Shown here piece by piece: positions 40,463 to 45,374 of a stretch of DNA of 55,401 nt. Where the stretch lies: assembly GCA_025352065.1 (NCBI GenBank), contig JANXUC010000073.1:1-55401 (forward strand). Reading direction: 5' to 3'. Made by a program: the position numbers and the translations under genes. The stretch comes from Acidobacteriaceae bacterium (GTDB lineage: Bacteria > Acidobacteriota > Terriglobia > Terriglobales > Acidobacteriaceae). The notes beneath the pieces are model-generated. The model saw nothing but the letters and a program-made list of their open reading frames with translations. It was not told the origin of the DNA and searched no databases. Position 1 is the stretch's first letter, and every line of letters begins with the position of its first letter.

Positions 40463-41572
40463 CTAACAAAATCTCTTGTGCTGTTCCAGAATAAAGTTGT
40501 CGGTCATGCCAGCGATGTAATCGCAGAGGACGCGCGGCAGCGGTTCCTGCTGAGATTTTTCACGGTAGGCCGAAGGTAAATCACCGGGCCTCCGCATCCA
40601 GTGCGCGAAAAGGTCACGGATAACGCGCTCGGCTTCCTCTTTTTCTGGCTCCAAAGCTTTGCTGAAATAAAGATTCGTGTGCAGGAACTCCTTGCAGGCG
40701 AGGCGGTCGACGTCGATTCCTTTGGGAAAGCCCACTAAACGTTCAGGGTGGCGCCGCACATCGTCCACGCTTTGAATGCTGGTCTGCTTGATGTTGAAGG
40801 TCGTGCCCTCAATTAATCCAGTGACGAAGCGGTTGAGGACAAGTTTGAGCGCTTCATTGAATTTAAGTTTTTCCGGGGCGTCGGGATATTTGAGTTGGAC
40901 CTCGCGGAAGAACGCTTCGAAGACTGGAAGGCTCGCGCGAATCATGGGAAGCGTGATGAGGTGCGCTTCGAATCCGTCGTCGAGGTCGGCGGTGTTGTAG
41001 GCGATTTCGTCGGCCAGGTCGATGAGTTGCGCTTCGAGCGGCGGGCGTTGGTCCAGGAGATACTCGGCCAGTTCGGGGTGCTCGTTAATGGAATAGTCGT
41101 GCGAGTGTTTGATAATGCCTTCGCGGATCTCGAACGTCAGGTTCAGCCCGCGGAACGCTGCATACCGCATTTCGAAATCCTCAACGATGCGCAGCGCGTG
41201 CAGGTTGTGATCGAAGAAATGTCCGTGTTCGCGCATGGCGCCGTCGAGCGCGCGTTCTCCGGCATGGCCGAAAGGCGGATGGCCGACATCGTGGACCAGG
41301 GCGAGTGCTTCTACCAAATCCACATTCAGGCCGAGCTGGCCCGCGATGGTTCGCGCAATCTGCGTGACTTCAATGGTGTGGGTGAGGCGGTTGCGGAAGT
41401 GGTCGGAGTAGCGGCGAGAGAAAACCTGCGTCTTGGCTTCCAGACGGCGAAAGGCGCGGGCATGGACTACGCGGTCGCGGTCGCGTTGATAGTCGTTGCG
41501 GTAAGGATGCGGAGCCTCGGGGTGACGGCGTCCTTGAGAAGTTTCGACGCGCACGGCGTAGGGGGCGAGCAT
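40463..41572 (-). CDS. Deoxyguanosinetriphosphate triphosphohydrolase-like HD protein
   Basis: A 369-residue dNTP triphosphohydrolase of the dGTPase-like type 2 group. It shows the N-terminal RNDYQRDRDRVVHARAFRRL block and the HD motif: HTIEVTQIARTIA, then LALVHDVGHPPFGHAGERAL near 105-124, and LADEIAYNTADLDDGFEAHL carrying the last metal Asp. It degrades dNTPs and so balances the nucleotide pool; the deoxynucleoside kinase in this window acts in the opposite direction. Cytoplasmic. Divergent from the toxin-antitoxin pair. Confidence 0.92.
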   Translation of the reverse strand: MLAPYAVRVETSQGRRHPEAPHPYRNDYQRDRDRVVHARAFRRLEAKTQVFSRRYSDHFRNRLTHTIEVTQIARTIAGQLGLNVDLVEALALVHDVGHPPFGHAGERALDGAMREHGHFFDHNLHALRIVEDFEMRYAAFRGLNLTFEIREGIIKHSHDYSINEHPELAEYLLDQRPPLEAQLIDLADEIAYNTADLDDGFEAHLITLPMIRASLPVFEAFFREVQLKYPDAPEKLKFNEALKLVLNRFVTGLIEGTTFNIKQTSIQSVDDVRRHPERLVGFPKGIDVDRLACKEFLHTNLYFSKALEPEKEEAERVIRDLFAHWMRRPGDLPSAYREKSQQEPLPRVLCDYIAGMTDNFILEQHKRFC

Positions 41573-41615: not shown

Positions 41616-41667
41616 TTGACGGAAGTACGCCATTAGCGTATAGTTTGGTTTGTACGCTATTAGCGTA
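41616..41667 (+). promoter_or_regulatory. Promoter and twin operators of the higBA-type operon
   Basis: A -35 box TTGACG (41616-41621) and -10 box TATAGT (41639-41644) are separated by 17 nt. Two 15-bp palindromes, TACGCCATTAGCGTA (41626-41640) and TACGCTATTAGCGTA (41653-41667), differ at one central base and lie 27 bp apart centre to centre. The first fills the -35/-10 spacer and the second covers the start of transcription. Binding of the antitoxin would block RNA polymerase, as known for HigA-type autoregulation. Confidence 0.85.
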
Positions 41668-42056
41668 TGACGCGATATTGTCATGAATTCATGGAAGCTC
41701 CGGCATTTACGCGCCATATTTCGGAATATCTGACTGACGACGCGTACCGCATATTGCAAACCGAGTTGACGAGCAGCCCGGAACTCGGAGACGTGATGCC
41801 GGGGACGGGCGGTTTCCGGAAGCTTCGCTGGGCGGACGTAAGACGTGGTAAGGGTCGCAGGGGCGGCTTGCGAATTATTTACTACTATTTTTTGTCCAAT
41901 CACCAAATTTGGCTGATGACGCTCTACGGCAAGAACGAGGCAGTAGATCTTTCGCCAACTGAAAAGAAGGCACTCAAGGCTGCCATTGATGCGGAATTGA
42001 AGATGCGTGAAACGAAACGAGTTGTGGAAAAGCGAAGGTCACGGAGGCCCAGATAA
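41667..42056 (+). CDS. HigB-2/RelE-like toxin
   Basis: A predicted ribosome-dependent mRNA interferase of 129 residues (121 if ATG 41691 is used). Family blocks: FRKLRWADVRRGKGRRGGLR near 52-71, IIYYYFLSNHQIWLMTLYGK and EAVDLSPTEKKALKAAID. The basic Arg/Lys surface typical of RelE-fold toxins is evident, with a basic tail (KRRSRRPR). ATG 41667 overlaps the second operator and would give a very short leader, so ATG 41691 may be the real start; neither has a Shine-Dalgarno. The stop overlaps the antitoxin ATG (TAATG). Confidence 0.85.
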   Translation: MTRYCHEFMEAPAFTRHISEYLTDDAYRILQTELTSSPELGDVMPGTGGFRKLRWADVRRGKGRRGGLRIIYYYFLSNHQIWLMTLYGKNEAVDLSPTEKKALKAAIDAELKMRETKRVVEKRRSRRPR

Positions 42057-42382
42057 TGGCAAAGCGAGATGTTTTTGGCGAACTCACTGAAGGCGTAGCT
42101 GCCATGAAAGCTCATCGCGAGGGCAAGATCACGCTGCGGAGCTACAAGGTTGAGCCGTTACCCTTGCCCAAGGTAGATGCCAAGCTAATTCGAGATACGC
42201 GAAAGAAACTTGCCTGCTCCAGAGCTGTGTTTGCAAGGAAGCTGCGGATCAATGAGAGGACTCTGGAGAAGTGGGAGCAAGGGCGCGCGCGACCCAATCC
42301 TCAGGCCGCTGTGCTCATGCTACTTGTCCGCAAATACCCCGACACCCTTGAGAGGCTGGAGAAGATGGGAGCTGGGAAGTAG
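42056..42382 (+). CDS. HigA-2-like antitoxin, HTH regulator
   Basis: A 108-residue antitoxin that neutralises the upstream toxin and probably represses the operon. The N-terminus (KRDVFGELTEGVAAMKAHRE, then GKITLRSYKVEP) is the toxin-neutralising region. The C-terminal helix-turn-helix (about 45-100) has CSRAVFARKLRINERTLEKW followed by EQGRARPNPQAAVLMLLVRK. The toxin-first order is that of higBA. ATG overlaps the toxin stop by one base, so translation is coupled. The twin palindromes upstream are its likely targets. Confidence 0.88.
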   Translation: MAKRDVFGELTEGVAAMKAHREGKITLRSYKVEPLPLPKVDAKLIRDTRKKLACSRAVFARKLRINERTLEKWEQGRARPNPQAAVLMLLVRKYPDTLERLEKMGAGK

Positions 42383-42390
42383 CGGTCGGG

Positions 42391-42969
42391 CTACTTCGTG
42401 TTCCGAATTCGCTCCAAAACTTCTGCCGCTTTCGGAATGTCGGGGACAGTTTCGCTGACTCGGCGCCAACGTTCCACGCCTTGTTCGTCAATCAGTATTG
42501 TGGTTCGGATAGCGATGTCGGCGTCGCCTTTGCCGTTGGCGTGGAGCAAGCCGTACTTGCGGATGACCTGCGCTCCGGGGTCGCTGAGGATCGGAAACTG
42601 CTTTTGAACGGCCTTTTCCCACACCGAATGAGCGTGCTCTGTGTCATCCACGCTGATAGCGACTAGGCGTGTATCGATCTTGTCGAACTCTGCTTTTTGC
42701 CGCGCGAACTCGCGCAGTTGCATCACGCAGAACGGTCACCAATAGCCTCGGTAGAAGATGACGAGGACGCGATGGCCCTTCTGGTCGGCAAGATGGTAGG
42801 GCTGAGCGTTTTCGTCGGAGAGCGTGAAGTCGGGGGCTGGAGTTCCCGTCGCCGAGGCGATCTGCGGCTTGGGCAGCTTCATTTTCTGAGCGAGTACCAC
42901 GGTGCCGATGACTGCGACCGCGAGGAGGGCAATTAGAGGGATCGCGAACCTGCGTCGAAAAAATGCCAT
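42391..42969 (-). CDS. Membrane-anchored peroxiredoxin, candidate selenoprotein (TGA at residue 78)
   Basis: Reading through one in-frame TGA (42736-42738) gives a 192-residue AhpC/TSA-type peroxiredoxin. It has an N-terminal membrane anchor FAIPLIALLAVAVIGTVVLA, the entry block TPAPDFTLSDENAQPYHLAD, then VLVIFYRGYW-U78-PFC81 and LVAISVDDTEHAHSVWEKA. TGA falls exactly where family members have the peroxidatic Cys (FYRGxWCPFC), leaving a UxxC redox pair. A SECIS-like hairpin follows (42700-42717). ATG 42969 is preferred; the longer frame to 43029 reads through a repeat element. Expected role: periplasmic-side peroxide reduction. The alternative is a one-base nonsense mutation (TGC to TGA). Usual callers would split the gene. 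Confidence 0.75.
42690..42738 (-). promoter_or_regulatory. Candidate bacterial SECIS element of the peroxiredoxin gene
   Basis: Starting at the TGA, a 7-bp stem CTGCGCG / CGCGCGG with loop AGTT begins 19 nt downstream, and the apical loop starts 26 nt after TGA. G is the second loop base. A lower helix, CTGC / GCAG (nt 6-9 with 43-46), closes below an internal loop. Distance, stem length and loop G fit the general bacterial SECIS model (loop 16-37 nt from UGA, G among the first two loop bases). Confidence 0.6.
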
Positions 42970-42989: not shown

Positions 42990-43073
42990 GGTCATTCCGA
43001 GCGAAGCGAAAAATCCCTTTGACTACCAACAGTCTCTCGGTGATAGGGATTCTTCGCTTCGCTCAGAATGACA
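42990..43073. repeat. 'GTCATTCCGAGCG' inverted-repeat element, copy D
   Basis: Left GGTCATTCCGAGCGAAGCGA with AAAATCCCTTT; right ATAGGGATTCTTCGCTTCGC with TCAGAATGACA. It lies just upstream of the peroxiredoxin start and extends its frame spuriously. Confidence 0.85.
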
Positions 43074-43106: not shown

Positions 43107-45197
43107 CTAACGGCGCTCGGGCGTTTCCTTGGCCAATTTTACCCGTGCCGCGTCGAGCTTCTTCTGCACGCGCGTCACATCAGCGGGATCTACTTCGACG
43201 CCGATCGTTTTGTTCCATTCCGAGATTGAGCGTTCCCAGTGCGTGGCAGCCAGCTTCAAGCGGCCGGTTTTCTGATAGAGGTCGGCCAGATGCTCGTTGA
43301 TTGTGGGATCGGATTCCGAACGTTGCGAAGCGCGCAGGAGATGCTGTTCTGCCAAATCATACTTGCCGAGCTTGAAGTAGGCCCAGCCCAGCGAGTCGAG
43401 ATAGGCACCATTCGCGGGATCGAGTTCGACCGCCTTCTTGATGTAGGTGAGCGCGTCTTCAAGGCGTACGCCGCGATCTGCCAGCATGTAGCCCAGATAG
43501 TTGAGCGTCATACCGCTGTGGGGGTCAAGCGCAAGAATTTTACTGAAGGATGCTTCCGCCTGCTCATACTTCTTTTCGCGTTCAAAGACCGATCCGGCCA
43601 CGAAGTTTGCATAGATCAATTCGTCTTGCTTGGTGGAAAGGCCGAGAGCCTTCGCGGCGGCCTCTTCGGCTTCCGGCCAGCGACGCAAGCGGCTCAGCAT
43701 TTGCGCCAGCGAGATGTAGACTTCGCGATCATCGGCATCGCCTTTCAGCAGCGAGCGGACTTGAGCCAGGGCCTTGTCGGGCTCGCCGGAGTCTGCGAGT
43801 TGCGAAGCTAGAACCATCTTGAGGCCGCGGTCGTTCGGCATCTTCTGCACAGCTTCGCGGGCGGTTGCGGTGGCCTTGGTCCAATCTTTTGCTTCGCGAT
43901 AGGTGTCGATGATTTCCTGATATCCGCGTACCGCGTTCTCATCGCCCAGCGTCAACATCTTGCGGAAGGTTTCCATTGCCGCGTCGTCTTTGTGCTGATC
44001 GCGCTGGATCATGCCAAGCCGTTCCAGGAAAATTGCGCGATTGTTCTGTTCGCCCTGGGTCGGATTGCCGTCTATTTTTTCCGAGCGTTGCAGCAGCTTC
44101 TGCAATTCGGTTACGGCGTCGGCATCTTTGCCCTGGGCCTGATAGACCGCAGCTACGTTGAAAGGAACTTCCAGCGAATCTGGAACCAGAGCCTCAGCTT
44201 TCTTGAGCGTGCTCAGCGCGAGATCAAACTTGCCGGTGCGGCGATAAATCTCCGCCATCCGAAGATAGGTTTGTGCGTCTTCGGGATTCGCTTCCGCAAT
44301 GACTTTGAACTGCTCCAGCGAGGCATTCAATTGGCCGTCGTTCAGGAGATTCTGTGCCAGGCCGCGCACCGCATCCAGGTTTTCGCGGTCGAGCTCAGTC
44401 GCTTTCTGATAAGCCTTGATCGCTTCTTTGTATTGCTTCTGCTGCTCGTAAGTGAAAGCCAGTGCGGCGTAAAGCTTTGCCGAGCGCGCCGCGTCGGGAA
44501 GGGAATTCAGCGTCTCCACTGCACGCTTGTTGTCGCCTTCTTCGTTATAGAGATAGGCCAGCAGGGTCACGGCTTCTTCGGAGTCGGGCTGCAATTTCAC
44601 CGCAGCCTTGAATGCTCCCTCCGCTTTTTGCAGGTCGTTATTCAGCTTGTAGAGGCGGCCCAGCAACAGGTGTCCGTCAATCCCTTTGGGCTCTAGCTTG
44701 ACGATCTGTTCGTATTGTTCAATCGCGCTCTTGAGCACATCCTGGGATCCGGAGCCCGATTGCATGTCGCCCAGGGAACGCAGGTAAATCCGTCCCAGCA
44801 ACTTATGTGCTTCCAGGTTGTTGGGATCGCGCTTGATCATGTCCTGGGCTTCCTGAATGGCGTCGCGAATTCGACCGGTGCGAGCGTAAAGCTCCGCTAG
44901 TCCTGTATTCAAGTACTCCGAGCCGGGATCGTTTTCGAGGGCCAGCCGGTACTCGTCGATCGCCTTGCTGGCGGCCTTGGTGTCCCCGTAGGCCGTAACC
45001 TGCTCTTCGTAGATATGCGCCATCGCGTAGTGGTAATAGGCGGCAGCCTTGTCGGGCGTCTTCACGGGAGCGCTCGTCGAAGACGAAGCACTGGCGTCTG
45101 GCGTTGCCTTCGCGGGGGCTTGCTGCCCGAGGGCGGCCACGGAAAAAGCGGCCGACATGAATGCCAGCATGAACAACGAGCGCACGGATCGAATCAT
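43107..45197 (-). CDS. Exported TPR-repeat protein
   Basis: A 696-residue protein of tandem tetratricopeptide repeats. The signal peptide is RSLFMLAFMSAAFSVAALGQ, followed by an Ala/Ser/Thr/Pro linker. At least twelve TPR-like helical pairs then run from about 50 to 670, with typical motifs such as AIEQYEQIVKLEPKGIDGHL, AIKAYQKATELDRENLDAVR and ALTYIKKAVELDPANGAYLD. It is probably a periplasmic or outer-membrane scaffold; partners are unknown. ATG 45197 is chosen because it opens directly on the signal peptide; an upstream in-frame GTG-type start would add 16 residues. A purine synthesis gene lies upstream with no functional link evident. Confidence 0.88.
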   Translation of the reverse strand: MIRSVRSLFMLAFMSAAFSVAALGQQAPAKATPDASASSSTSAPVKTPDKAAAYYHYAMAHIYEEQVTAYGDTKAASKAIDEYRLALENDPGSEYLNTGLAELYARTGRIRDAIQEAQDMIKRDPNNLEAHKLLGRIYLRSLGDMQSGSGSQDVLKSAIEQYEQIVKLEPKGIDGHLLLGRLYKLNNDLQKAEGAFKAAVKLQPDSEEAVTLLAYLYNEEGDNKRAVETLNSLPDAARSAKLYAALAFTYEQQKQYKEAIKAYQKATELDRENLDAVRGLAQNLLNDGQLNASLEQFKVIAEANPEDAQTYLRMAEIYRRTGKFDLALSTLKKAEALVPDSLEVPFNVAAVYQAQGKDADAVTELQKLLQRSEKIDGNPTQGEQNNRAIFLERLGMIQRDQHKDDAAMETFRKMLTLGDENAVRGYQEIIDTYREAKDWTKATATAREAVQKMPNDRGLKMVLASQLADSGEPDKALAQVRSLLKGDADDREVYISLAQMLSRLRRWPEAEEAAAKALGLSTKQDELIYANFVAGSVFEREKKYEQAEASFSKILALDPHSGMTLNYLGYMLADRGVRLEDALTYIKKAVELDPANGAYLDSLGWAYFKLGKYDLAEQHLLRASQRSESDPTINEHLADLYQKTGRLKLAATHWERSISEWNKTIGVEVDPADVTRVQKKLDAARVKLAKETPERR

Positions 45198-45374
45198 TCG
45201 AAGAATACCTTTTCTTCCTAGTAAAGAGCTGCTTCCAAGAACCACTGCCCTTTAGATGCGGATTCACTGGAGCGGACTGCCTTATTTTACGCCGGGAAAT
45301 TGCCTCTCCGCAGAAAAAGACGGGCGGGTACCGGACTGACTGGCAACACGGAAGTTCAGGTACTGCTGAATGTG

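Follow-up and report, generated by a model that had tools for sequence, protein, structure and literature searches.

Introduction

Peroxiredoxin-like (Prx-like) selenoproteins with a UxxC motif, in which U is selenocysteine (Sec), have been named as a family since 2005 or earlier, on the basis of marine data (PMC1088965, in its accessible text; Sargasso Sea 2005, GOS 2008). The same text separates these Prx-like proteins (UXXC) from the Sec-peroxiredoxins (TXXU). In ocean data, the group called Prx-like 1 (pfam00578, UxxC) comprises 225 selenoproteins according to the available portion of PMC2398784, and the portions available of PMC1794560 and PMC13188914 name this kind the Prx-like thiol:disulfide oxidoreductase. 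A search of the accessible literature, with most subscription journals outside it, returned no specific report on the Acidobacteria clade described here.

We used computation to establish the frame, TGA conservation, SECIS hairpin, Sec decoding machinery, fold and UxxC placement of a redoxin gene in the window, by which we mean the whole 55,401-nucleotide stretch of DNA that was analysed. An earlier, sequence-only reading had proposed that this gene encodes a membrane-anchored selenocysteine peroxiredoxin with its TGA exactly at the peroxidatic cysteine.

Results

One redoxin frame contains a single in-frame TGA

The claim that a TGA splits one peroxiredoxin-like frame held, as did the other statements made about the sequence itself; the earlier reading was silent on the strand, and the gene lies on the minus strand. 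The frame runs from ATG at 42969 to TAG at 42391 and contains one in-frame TGA only, within the codons TGG TGA CCG TTC TGC. Its 192-residue product reads MAFFRRRF...VLVIFYRGYW-(TGA)-PFCVMQLREF...RNTK, then stop.

42391-42969, minus strand: predicted gene for a Prx-like redoxin with Sec, 192 aa when TGA is translated as Sec (translation, Pfam, AlphaFold2)
42736-42738, minus strand: in-frame TGA, predicted Sec78 of the UPFC (UxxC) motif (sequence; TGA in 92 of 116 named-genome stretches listed)

The window protein matches PF00578 (AhpC-TSA; 105.1 bits, cut-off 26) and PF08534 (Redoxin; 90.5 bits, cut-off 26.6), and no glutathione peroxidase (GPx) family was among its Pfam matches at E<=0.001. 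An AlphaFold2 model (mean pLDDT 90.8) consists of a hydrophobic N-terminal helix and a redoxin domain. The top solved folds listed for it are peroxiredoxins, such as Bcp4 (3hjp; Z 24.4, rmsd 1.8 over 154 residues) and AhpE (4x0x; Z 23.6, rmsd 1.7 over 150 residues), and peroxiredoxins fill the 50 best-ranked structures listed. ResA structures occur among the sequence matches of a profile-to-PDB comparison. GPx is absent from the 50 structure matches given in each list, which counts neither way on GPx membership. The window protein stays below the cut-off of every one of the 21 NCBIfam models listed, so genes of this kind may be at risk of truncation or pseudogene calls in annotation; it is plausible that usual gene calling would split this one in two.

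The N-terminal helix may serve as a signal peptide or as an anchor.

42889-42936, minus strand: hydrophobic N-terminal helix, residues 12-27, candidate signal peptide or anchor (predicted helix; V-L-A at 25-27 by eye)

Residues V-L-A (25-27) precede Q28, and two close homologues have L-F-A and A-F-A there (by eye). The sequence V-L-A before Q28 would, we assume, suit a signal peptidase I motif. Given this fit and the two homologues, a periplasmic protein appears as likely as the membrane-anchored one first proposed, and in either case we infer that the product is exported.

TGA is retained in close homologues and predominates in the family

A DNA scan of named genomes with the pattern FYRGYW-(TGN)-PxC found at least 116 stretches, in an uneven draw. 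Among the 116 listed, the codon at the site is TGA in 92, TGT in 17, TGC in 7 and TGG in none. Because the pattern is as open to Cys and Trp codons as to TGA, both the excess of TGA and the absence of TGG are informative. The in-frame TGA thus occupies a redox position that is Cys in homologues (92 TGA and 24 TGY in these stretches), the placement by which a selenoprotein is recognised, and the UxxC Prx-like family is mostly Sec among the matches listed. By their record titles, the genomes in the scan belong to Acidobacteria, Rokuibacteriota, Verrucomicrobia and other groups, and peat soil or groundwater is the source of some.

The four nearest homologues (L089, L079, L071 and L051; 48-61% identity) all keep the TGA and the hairpin described below. 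With the window gene they form a five-member clade from four assemblies, since L079 and L051 both seem to belong to G012. Residue 78 is thus encoded by TGA in 5/5 clade genes; close relatives with TGC and no hairpin, which the earlier reading had named as evidence against its claim, were not what we found. Protein identity between the window gene and these homologues is 53-64% after the TGA and 38-53% before it. After the TGA, pN/pS is 0.36 against L089, 0.35 against L079, 0.32 against L071 and 0.51 against L051, and the downstream part is under purifying selection.

Across 61 genomes (its own and 60 relatives), one TGA was read through in each of the ten best matches, which include the window gene; below these ten, TGA-bearing and TGA-free matches intermingle among those listed. 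One further redoxin match (G052:C87:21585-22049) has TAG as its sole internal stop; the other matches listed with an internal stop have TGA. A class-wide search of 399 genomes with a profile of the window's clade, in which at most eight candidates were scored per genome, gave 39 matches at E<=1e-30, spread over 37 genomes, and one TGA was read through in 39/39. We inspected 28 of these loci (L189-L216, a few of them already counted under other identifiers). The motif with TGA is present in 27, L207 being the one that did not fit the motif expression, and under looser limits a SECIS-type hairpin at <=-5 kcal/mol occurs in 26 of these 27. Loci L187, L188 and L052 were left out of the analysis.

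The genome encodes the machinery for Sec decoding

The host assembly (183 contigs, 98.5% complete) contains all four components that the sequence-only reading had suggested looking for. Profile searches found selB (383.6 bits, cut-off 242.25), selA (545.1 bits, cut-off 267.9) and selD (368.6 bits, cut-off 125), the last with an in-frame TGA of its own, and a tRNA-Sec scored 75.4 bits, with the anticodon tca assigned by ARAGORN. A genome lacking selB and selC, which would have spoken against Sec, is therefore not the case here.

Two further genes of this genome carry an in-frame TGA. In selD (L010, G000 contig C80, 71799-72731) it lies near the N-terminus (KAAG-TGA-ASK), and this protein is probably likewise a selenoprotein. 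The other is a second Prx-type gene (L186, 326-739 of G000 contig C14; FYIFAFTGG-TGA-TQQM), of the TxxU kind with Sec in the peroxidatic column.

Across genomes, all 11 with a TGA pattern match have a selA match, 10 of them over the cut-off (that of G048 lies just below it, at a contig edge), and a TGA pattern match occurs in 0 of 13 other genomes without selA over the cut-off. This co-occurrence favours Sec decoding. Its support is weak because a TGA pattern match is missing from 37 of the 47 genomes whose selA exceeds the cut-off, three Cys pattern matches come from selA-bearing genomes, and G046 runs counter to it. The latter (82% complete) has a FHRGYW-TGA-PFC redoxin (L049), outside the scan pattern, and no selA match; it is either an incomplete assembly or a selA-less decoder. 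As a separate observation, one selA match (G057:C56:5613-6755) has a TGA inside its frame and is a broken or split selA.

A SECIS-type hairpin follows the TGA and is enriched in TGA copies

The bSECIS model in the accessible text of PMC13188914 specifies an upper stem of 4-16 bp and a loop of 3-9 nt that has a G among its first two positions and lies 16-37 nt from the UGA, with an energy of <=-7.5 kcal/mol. The SECIS-like hairpin proposed at this locus falls within all of these published limits, as far as that text gives them.

42700-42717, minus strand: predicted bacterial SECIS apical hairpin, CTGCGCG-AGTT-CGCGCGG, 7 bp, loop AGUU (published limits; synonymous shuffles)

Its first nucleotide is the 19th beyond the TGA; it has 25 nt between TGA and loop and folds at -11.0 kcal/mol. 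The second helix said to close it is present in the window's minimum-energy fold (54 nt), but L089 lacks it (by eye). Against synonymous shuffles, the hairpin gave p 0.006 (1000 shuffles) and p 0.005 (20,000 shuffles). The fold of the whole region is unremarkable (z -1.3; 24/200 dinucleotide shuffles equal or better), as is that of 45 nt (p 0.16). Since a hairpin alone is insufficient proof at such a z value, we used comparative and synonymous-shuffle tests, and it is the comparison that provides the strong evidence against chance.

At <=-5 kcal/mol, a hairpin is found in 84 of the 92 TGA copies listed, where synonymous shuffles predict 12.6, and in 4 of the 24 Cys copies, where they predict 2.35. 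The Cys copies stay near their own shuffles and are a proper control. Fisher's test for TGA versus Cys copies gives 1.7e-12 at this threshold, a value that overstates the case because the sequences are related. At <=-7.5 kcal/mol, on hairpin energy alone, the counts among listed stretches are 51/92 TGA copies and 1/24 Cys copies, so that 8/92 TGA copies are without a hairpin at the looser threshold and 41/92 at the stricter one.

In the five-member clade, 35/35 pair cells are paired, with CG, UG or UA as the outer pair, and 15 consecutive nt (U GCGCG AGUU CGCGC) are invariant; third positions of both gene halves differ in 46-71% of pairwise clade comparisons. The alignment used here is ragged, the window's being the only one of its five rows to start at the TGA; the columns of the hairpin are nevertheless in register. 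Covariation within the clade was no better than in shuffles (1/7 pairs changed on both sides, which 196/500 shuffles reach), with little variation present.

The distance from TGA to the loop of the best hairpin is 16 nt in 63 of the 92 TGA copies listed (L053-L168), 21 nt in 8 and 24-25 nt in 14, and the loop is often GAGUU. Because this distance varies while the loop stays alike, the hairpin has apparently changed its place on the message, by a shift of ~9 nt relative to UGA between subfamilies.

With the machinery in the same genome, and with TGA and hairpin kept in the four closest homologues, the selenoprotein claim stands: we assign a probability of about 0.97 to the reading that this gene encodes a bacterial selenoprotein with UGA as Sec.

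Phylogeny and gene neighbourhood

A tree of 114 rows, built by a quick method, groups the window with L089, L079 and L071 (99), within an all-Sec group of 57 rows (89). Three Sec/Cys changes suffice on this tree, its Cys rows being an 18-row Bacteroidota group, four Acidobacteria (L066, L099, L134 and L161) and one Spongiibacteraceae row. As the tree is unrooted and has long branches (L100, L081, L132 and others), Sec gain and Sec loss are not separable on it, and we use it for the four-row clade and the three changes.

Two neighbouring genes recur in part of the clade.

43107-45245, minus strand: upstream TPR protein; L089 and L051 have a comparable neighbour (by eye), L079 and L071 do not
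40463-41572, minus strand: downstream HD-domain protein (PF13286, PF01966); likewise matched (by eye) beside the redoxin of L089 and L051, but not beside that of L079 or L071

Three of the five members thus have the redoxin gene between those of a TPR and an HD protein (assessed by eye outside the window), and L079 and L071 have other neighbours. We take the HD-domain protein to be dGTPase-like. In the window, positions 41667-42382 (plus strand), between the redoxin and HD protein genes, hold a RelE-like ORF (21.1 bits, Pfam cut-off 27) and then a helix-turn-helix ORF (HTH_3, 23.5 bits, cut-off 23), a candidate toxin-antitoxin pair. At this place there is hardly any space, or none, for such genes in L089 and L051.

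Just upstream of the redoxin gene lies a palindromic repeat (42991-43072) whose 33-nt arms are 88% complementary. It has at least 62 match rows at 72-100% identity in its own genome, with 40 of 103 candidates scored, and many places match on both strands; it looks like a dispersed element of the REP/MITE type. The only Rfam match at the locus, a sub-threshold mir-974 hit (30.8 bits, cut-off 90), falls on this repeat, and we judged it to be due to chance.

The predicted Sec lies three residues before the peroxidatic-cysteine column

The position of the TGA relative to the active site is where the sequence-only reading failed. In peroxiredoxin alignments, whose rows include four TxxU Sec-peroxiredoxins from relatives, Sec78 occupies a Thr/Ser column and residue 81 the invariant Cys/Sec column.

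42727-42729, minus strand: Cys81 (TGC), the C of UxxC; its column is that of the peroxidatic cysteine in peroxiredoxins (invariant in three alignments; aligned to Cys of 2ywn, 2cx3 and 1xvw)
42505-42507, minus strand: Arg155, in the Arg column of peroxiredoxins, mostly Pro in UxxC/CxxC relatives (alignment)

Opposite Sec78 is Thr in 4/4 TxxU peroxiredoxins, whose own Sec is in the residue-81 column, and Ser in 2/2 others. In the profile-to-PDB comparison, the first C of WCPFC is aligned with Thr in 2ywn, Ser in 2cx3 and Thr in 1xvw, and the second C with their conserved Cys. Since Sec78 aligns with Thr/Ser and Cys81 with Cys/Sec, the Sec is placed three residues before the peroxidatic cysteine, and not on it.

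Residue 155 sets the clade apart. We take its column to be that of the thioredoxin cis-proline, and an Arg there to be the peroxiredoxin active-site Arg; the title of 4xih (R116A mutant AhpE) fits the latter assignment. Within the clade the residue is Arg in 4/5 members and Asp in L071. It is Pro in 83, Ala in 5 and a gap in 1 of the other 89 Sec rows, and Pro in 21, Ala in 2 and a gap in 1 of the 24 Cys rows; among the other UxxC/CxxC rows with a letter, it is Pro in 104/111 and Ala in 7/111 (three short FYRGRWCPFC rows stop before this column). The peroxiredoxin rows have Arg in 5/5, and in 6/6 in a second alignment. The window protein thus joins a thioredoxin-type UxxC to a peroxiredoxin-type Arg, a combination that favours a peroxidase for this clade and leaves room for thiol-disulfide exchange. 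The Asp in L071 weakens the peroxidase reading.

Discussion

Proposed mechanism and alternative readings

We propose that the ribosome reads UGA 78 as selenocysteine by way of SelB, which would bind the nearby downstream SECIS hairpin with Sec-tRNA(UCA) as its cargo. The product would very probably be a selenoprotein with a working Sec78-Cys81 pair; we are less sure of which of the two residues attacks first, and of its target. Most likely Sec78, in the N-terminal (nucleophile) position of a thioredoxin-type motif, would attack a peroxide or a disulfide, Cys81 would then close a selenenylsulfide with Sec78, and a thiol partner would reduce it. For this clade Arg155 leans towards peroxide, which we consider slightly better than an even bet as the main substrate.

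A serious competitor, though one we hold at below even odds, is that the same selenoprotein naturally performs thiol-disulfide exchange in the manner of ResA or TlpA, without a peroxide step. The replacement of TxxC by UxxC and the ResA structures among the sequence matches fit this role, as does the name Prx-like thiol:disulfide oxidoreductase used in the accessible parts of PMC13188914 and PMC1794560. The 50 best-ranked structures listed are peroxiredoxins, however, and the usually Pro column is Arg in 4/5 clade rows, as it is in 5/5 peroxiredoxin rows.

The same pair could also work in the opposite sense, with Cys81 peroxidatic and Sec78 resolving by reaction with its sulfenic acid. Cys81 is in the invariant peroxidatic column and Arg155 is as in peroxiredoxins in 4/5 clade rows, but the Pro and Thr/Ser of the peroxiredoxin motif PxxxTxxC are replaced by Arg74 and Sec78, and a selenol that occupies the nucleophile position of the thioredoxin motif would be expected to react before the thiol, making this order of events unlikely. 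We favour Sec78 as the attacking residue.

It is very improbable that the TGA is read as tryptophan, is passed by unspecific read-through, or separates two proteins through re-initiation at a GTG or ATG after Cys81. An ORF of 111 aa does start at GTG 42726, but a start there would lose Cys81, TGG occurs in 0/116 listed copies where Cys codons occur in 24, a tRNA-Sec with tca is present, and the SECIS is enriched in TGA copies and hardly in Cys copies; we rejected these readings. Least probable of all, and likewise rejected, is a broken gene or sequencing error that made TGA from TGC or TGT in a dead frame, for which a single-base change would suffice, but which is already contradicted by TGA in 5/5 clade genes (four assemblies), 92/116 listed stretches and 39/39 class-wide matches, by purifying selection downstream of the TGA and by the hairpin.

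The selenoprotein with a Sec78-Cys81 pair could, tentatively and against our own expectation, be a mechanistic hybrid in the window's clade: a peroxiredoxin with peroxidatic Cys and active-site Arg that has Sec in the Thr position. If so, a vicinal Sec-Cys pair, and not one residue, would handle peroxide, and these Acidobacteria, represented here by metagenome assemblies only, would possess a fast two-chalcogen peroxidase whose recycling needs no distant resolving cysteine. The Sec/Cys split with matched SECIS loss, the hairpin shift and the Arg/Pro switch offer clean material on the evolution of SECIS position and Sec chemistry.

Comparison with known selenoprotein families

Sec-peroxiredoxins of the TxxU kind (PF00578) share the fold family and the Arg column, but their Sec is in the peroxidatic column, whereas the window protein has its predicted Sec three residues earlier and Cys81 in that column. 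Measured against peroxiredoxins in the strict sense (PxxxT/SxxC or TxxU), it has the Arg and a Cys in the peroxidatic column, and Sec78 instead of the Thr/Ser. The models NF040737 (PrxU; 50.4 of 270 bits) and NF045827 (Prx-SUH; 25.9 of 298 bits) both remain below cut-off.

SelL, whose motif we take to be UxxU with two Sec, differs in that the window gene has one TGA and would have one Sec; its protein scores 53 bits against the cut-off of 120 of the SelL-related NF040769, which places it outside SelL. Both are Prx-like redox proteins predicted to contain Sec, SelL being called "a Prx-like protein" in the available text of PMC2398784. Glutathione peroxidases with UxxT (motif from the accessible parts of PMC1088965 and PMC13188914) likewise have Sec at the first motif position, and have Thr where the window protein has Cys81.

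The closest match is the Prx-like thiol:disulfide oxidoreductase, or Prx-like 1, which in the available parts of PMC1088965, PMC1794560, PMC2398784 and PMC13188914 has the same PF00578 domain, UxxC, Cys homologues and a SECIS directly downstream. The window protein has that domain (105.1 bits) and UxxC, not TxxU (U78-P-F-C81). Its clade differs from this published kind, whose members we compared by description, in having Arg (4) or Asp (1) where the other UxxC/CxxC rows here have Pro or Ala. On the sequence evidence, this gene appears to be a further member of the known Prx-like UxxC selenoproteins, with an unusual Arg: real but not unprecedented.
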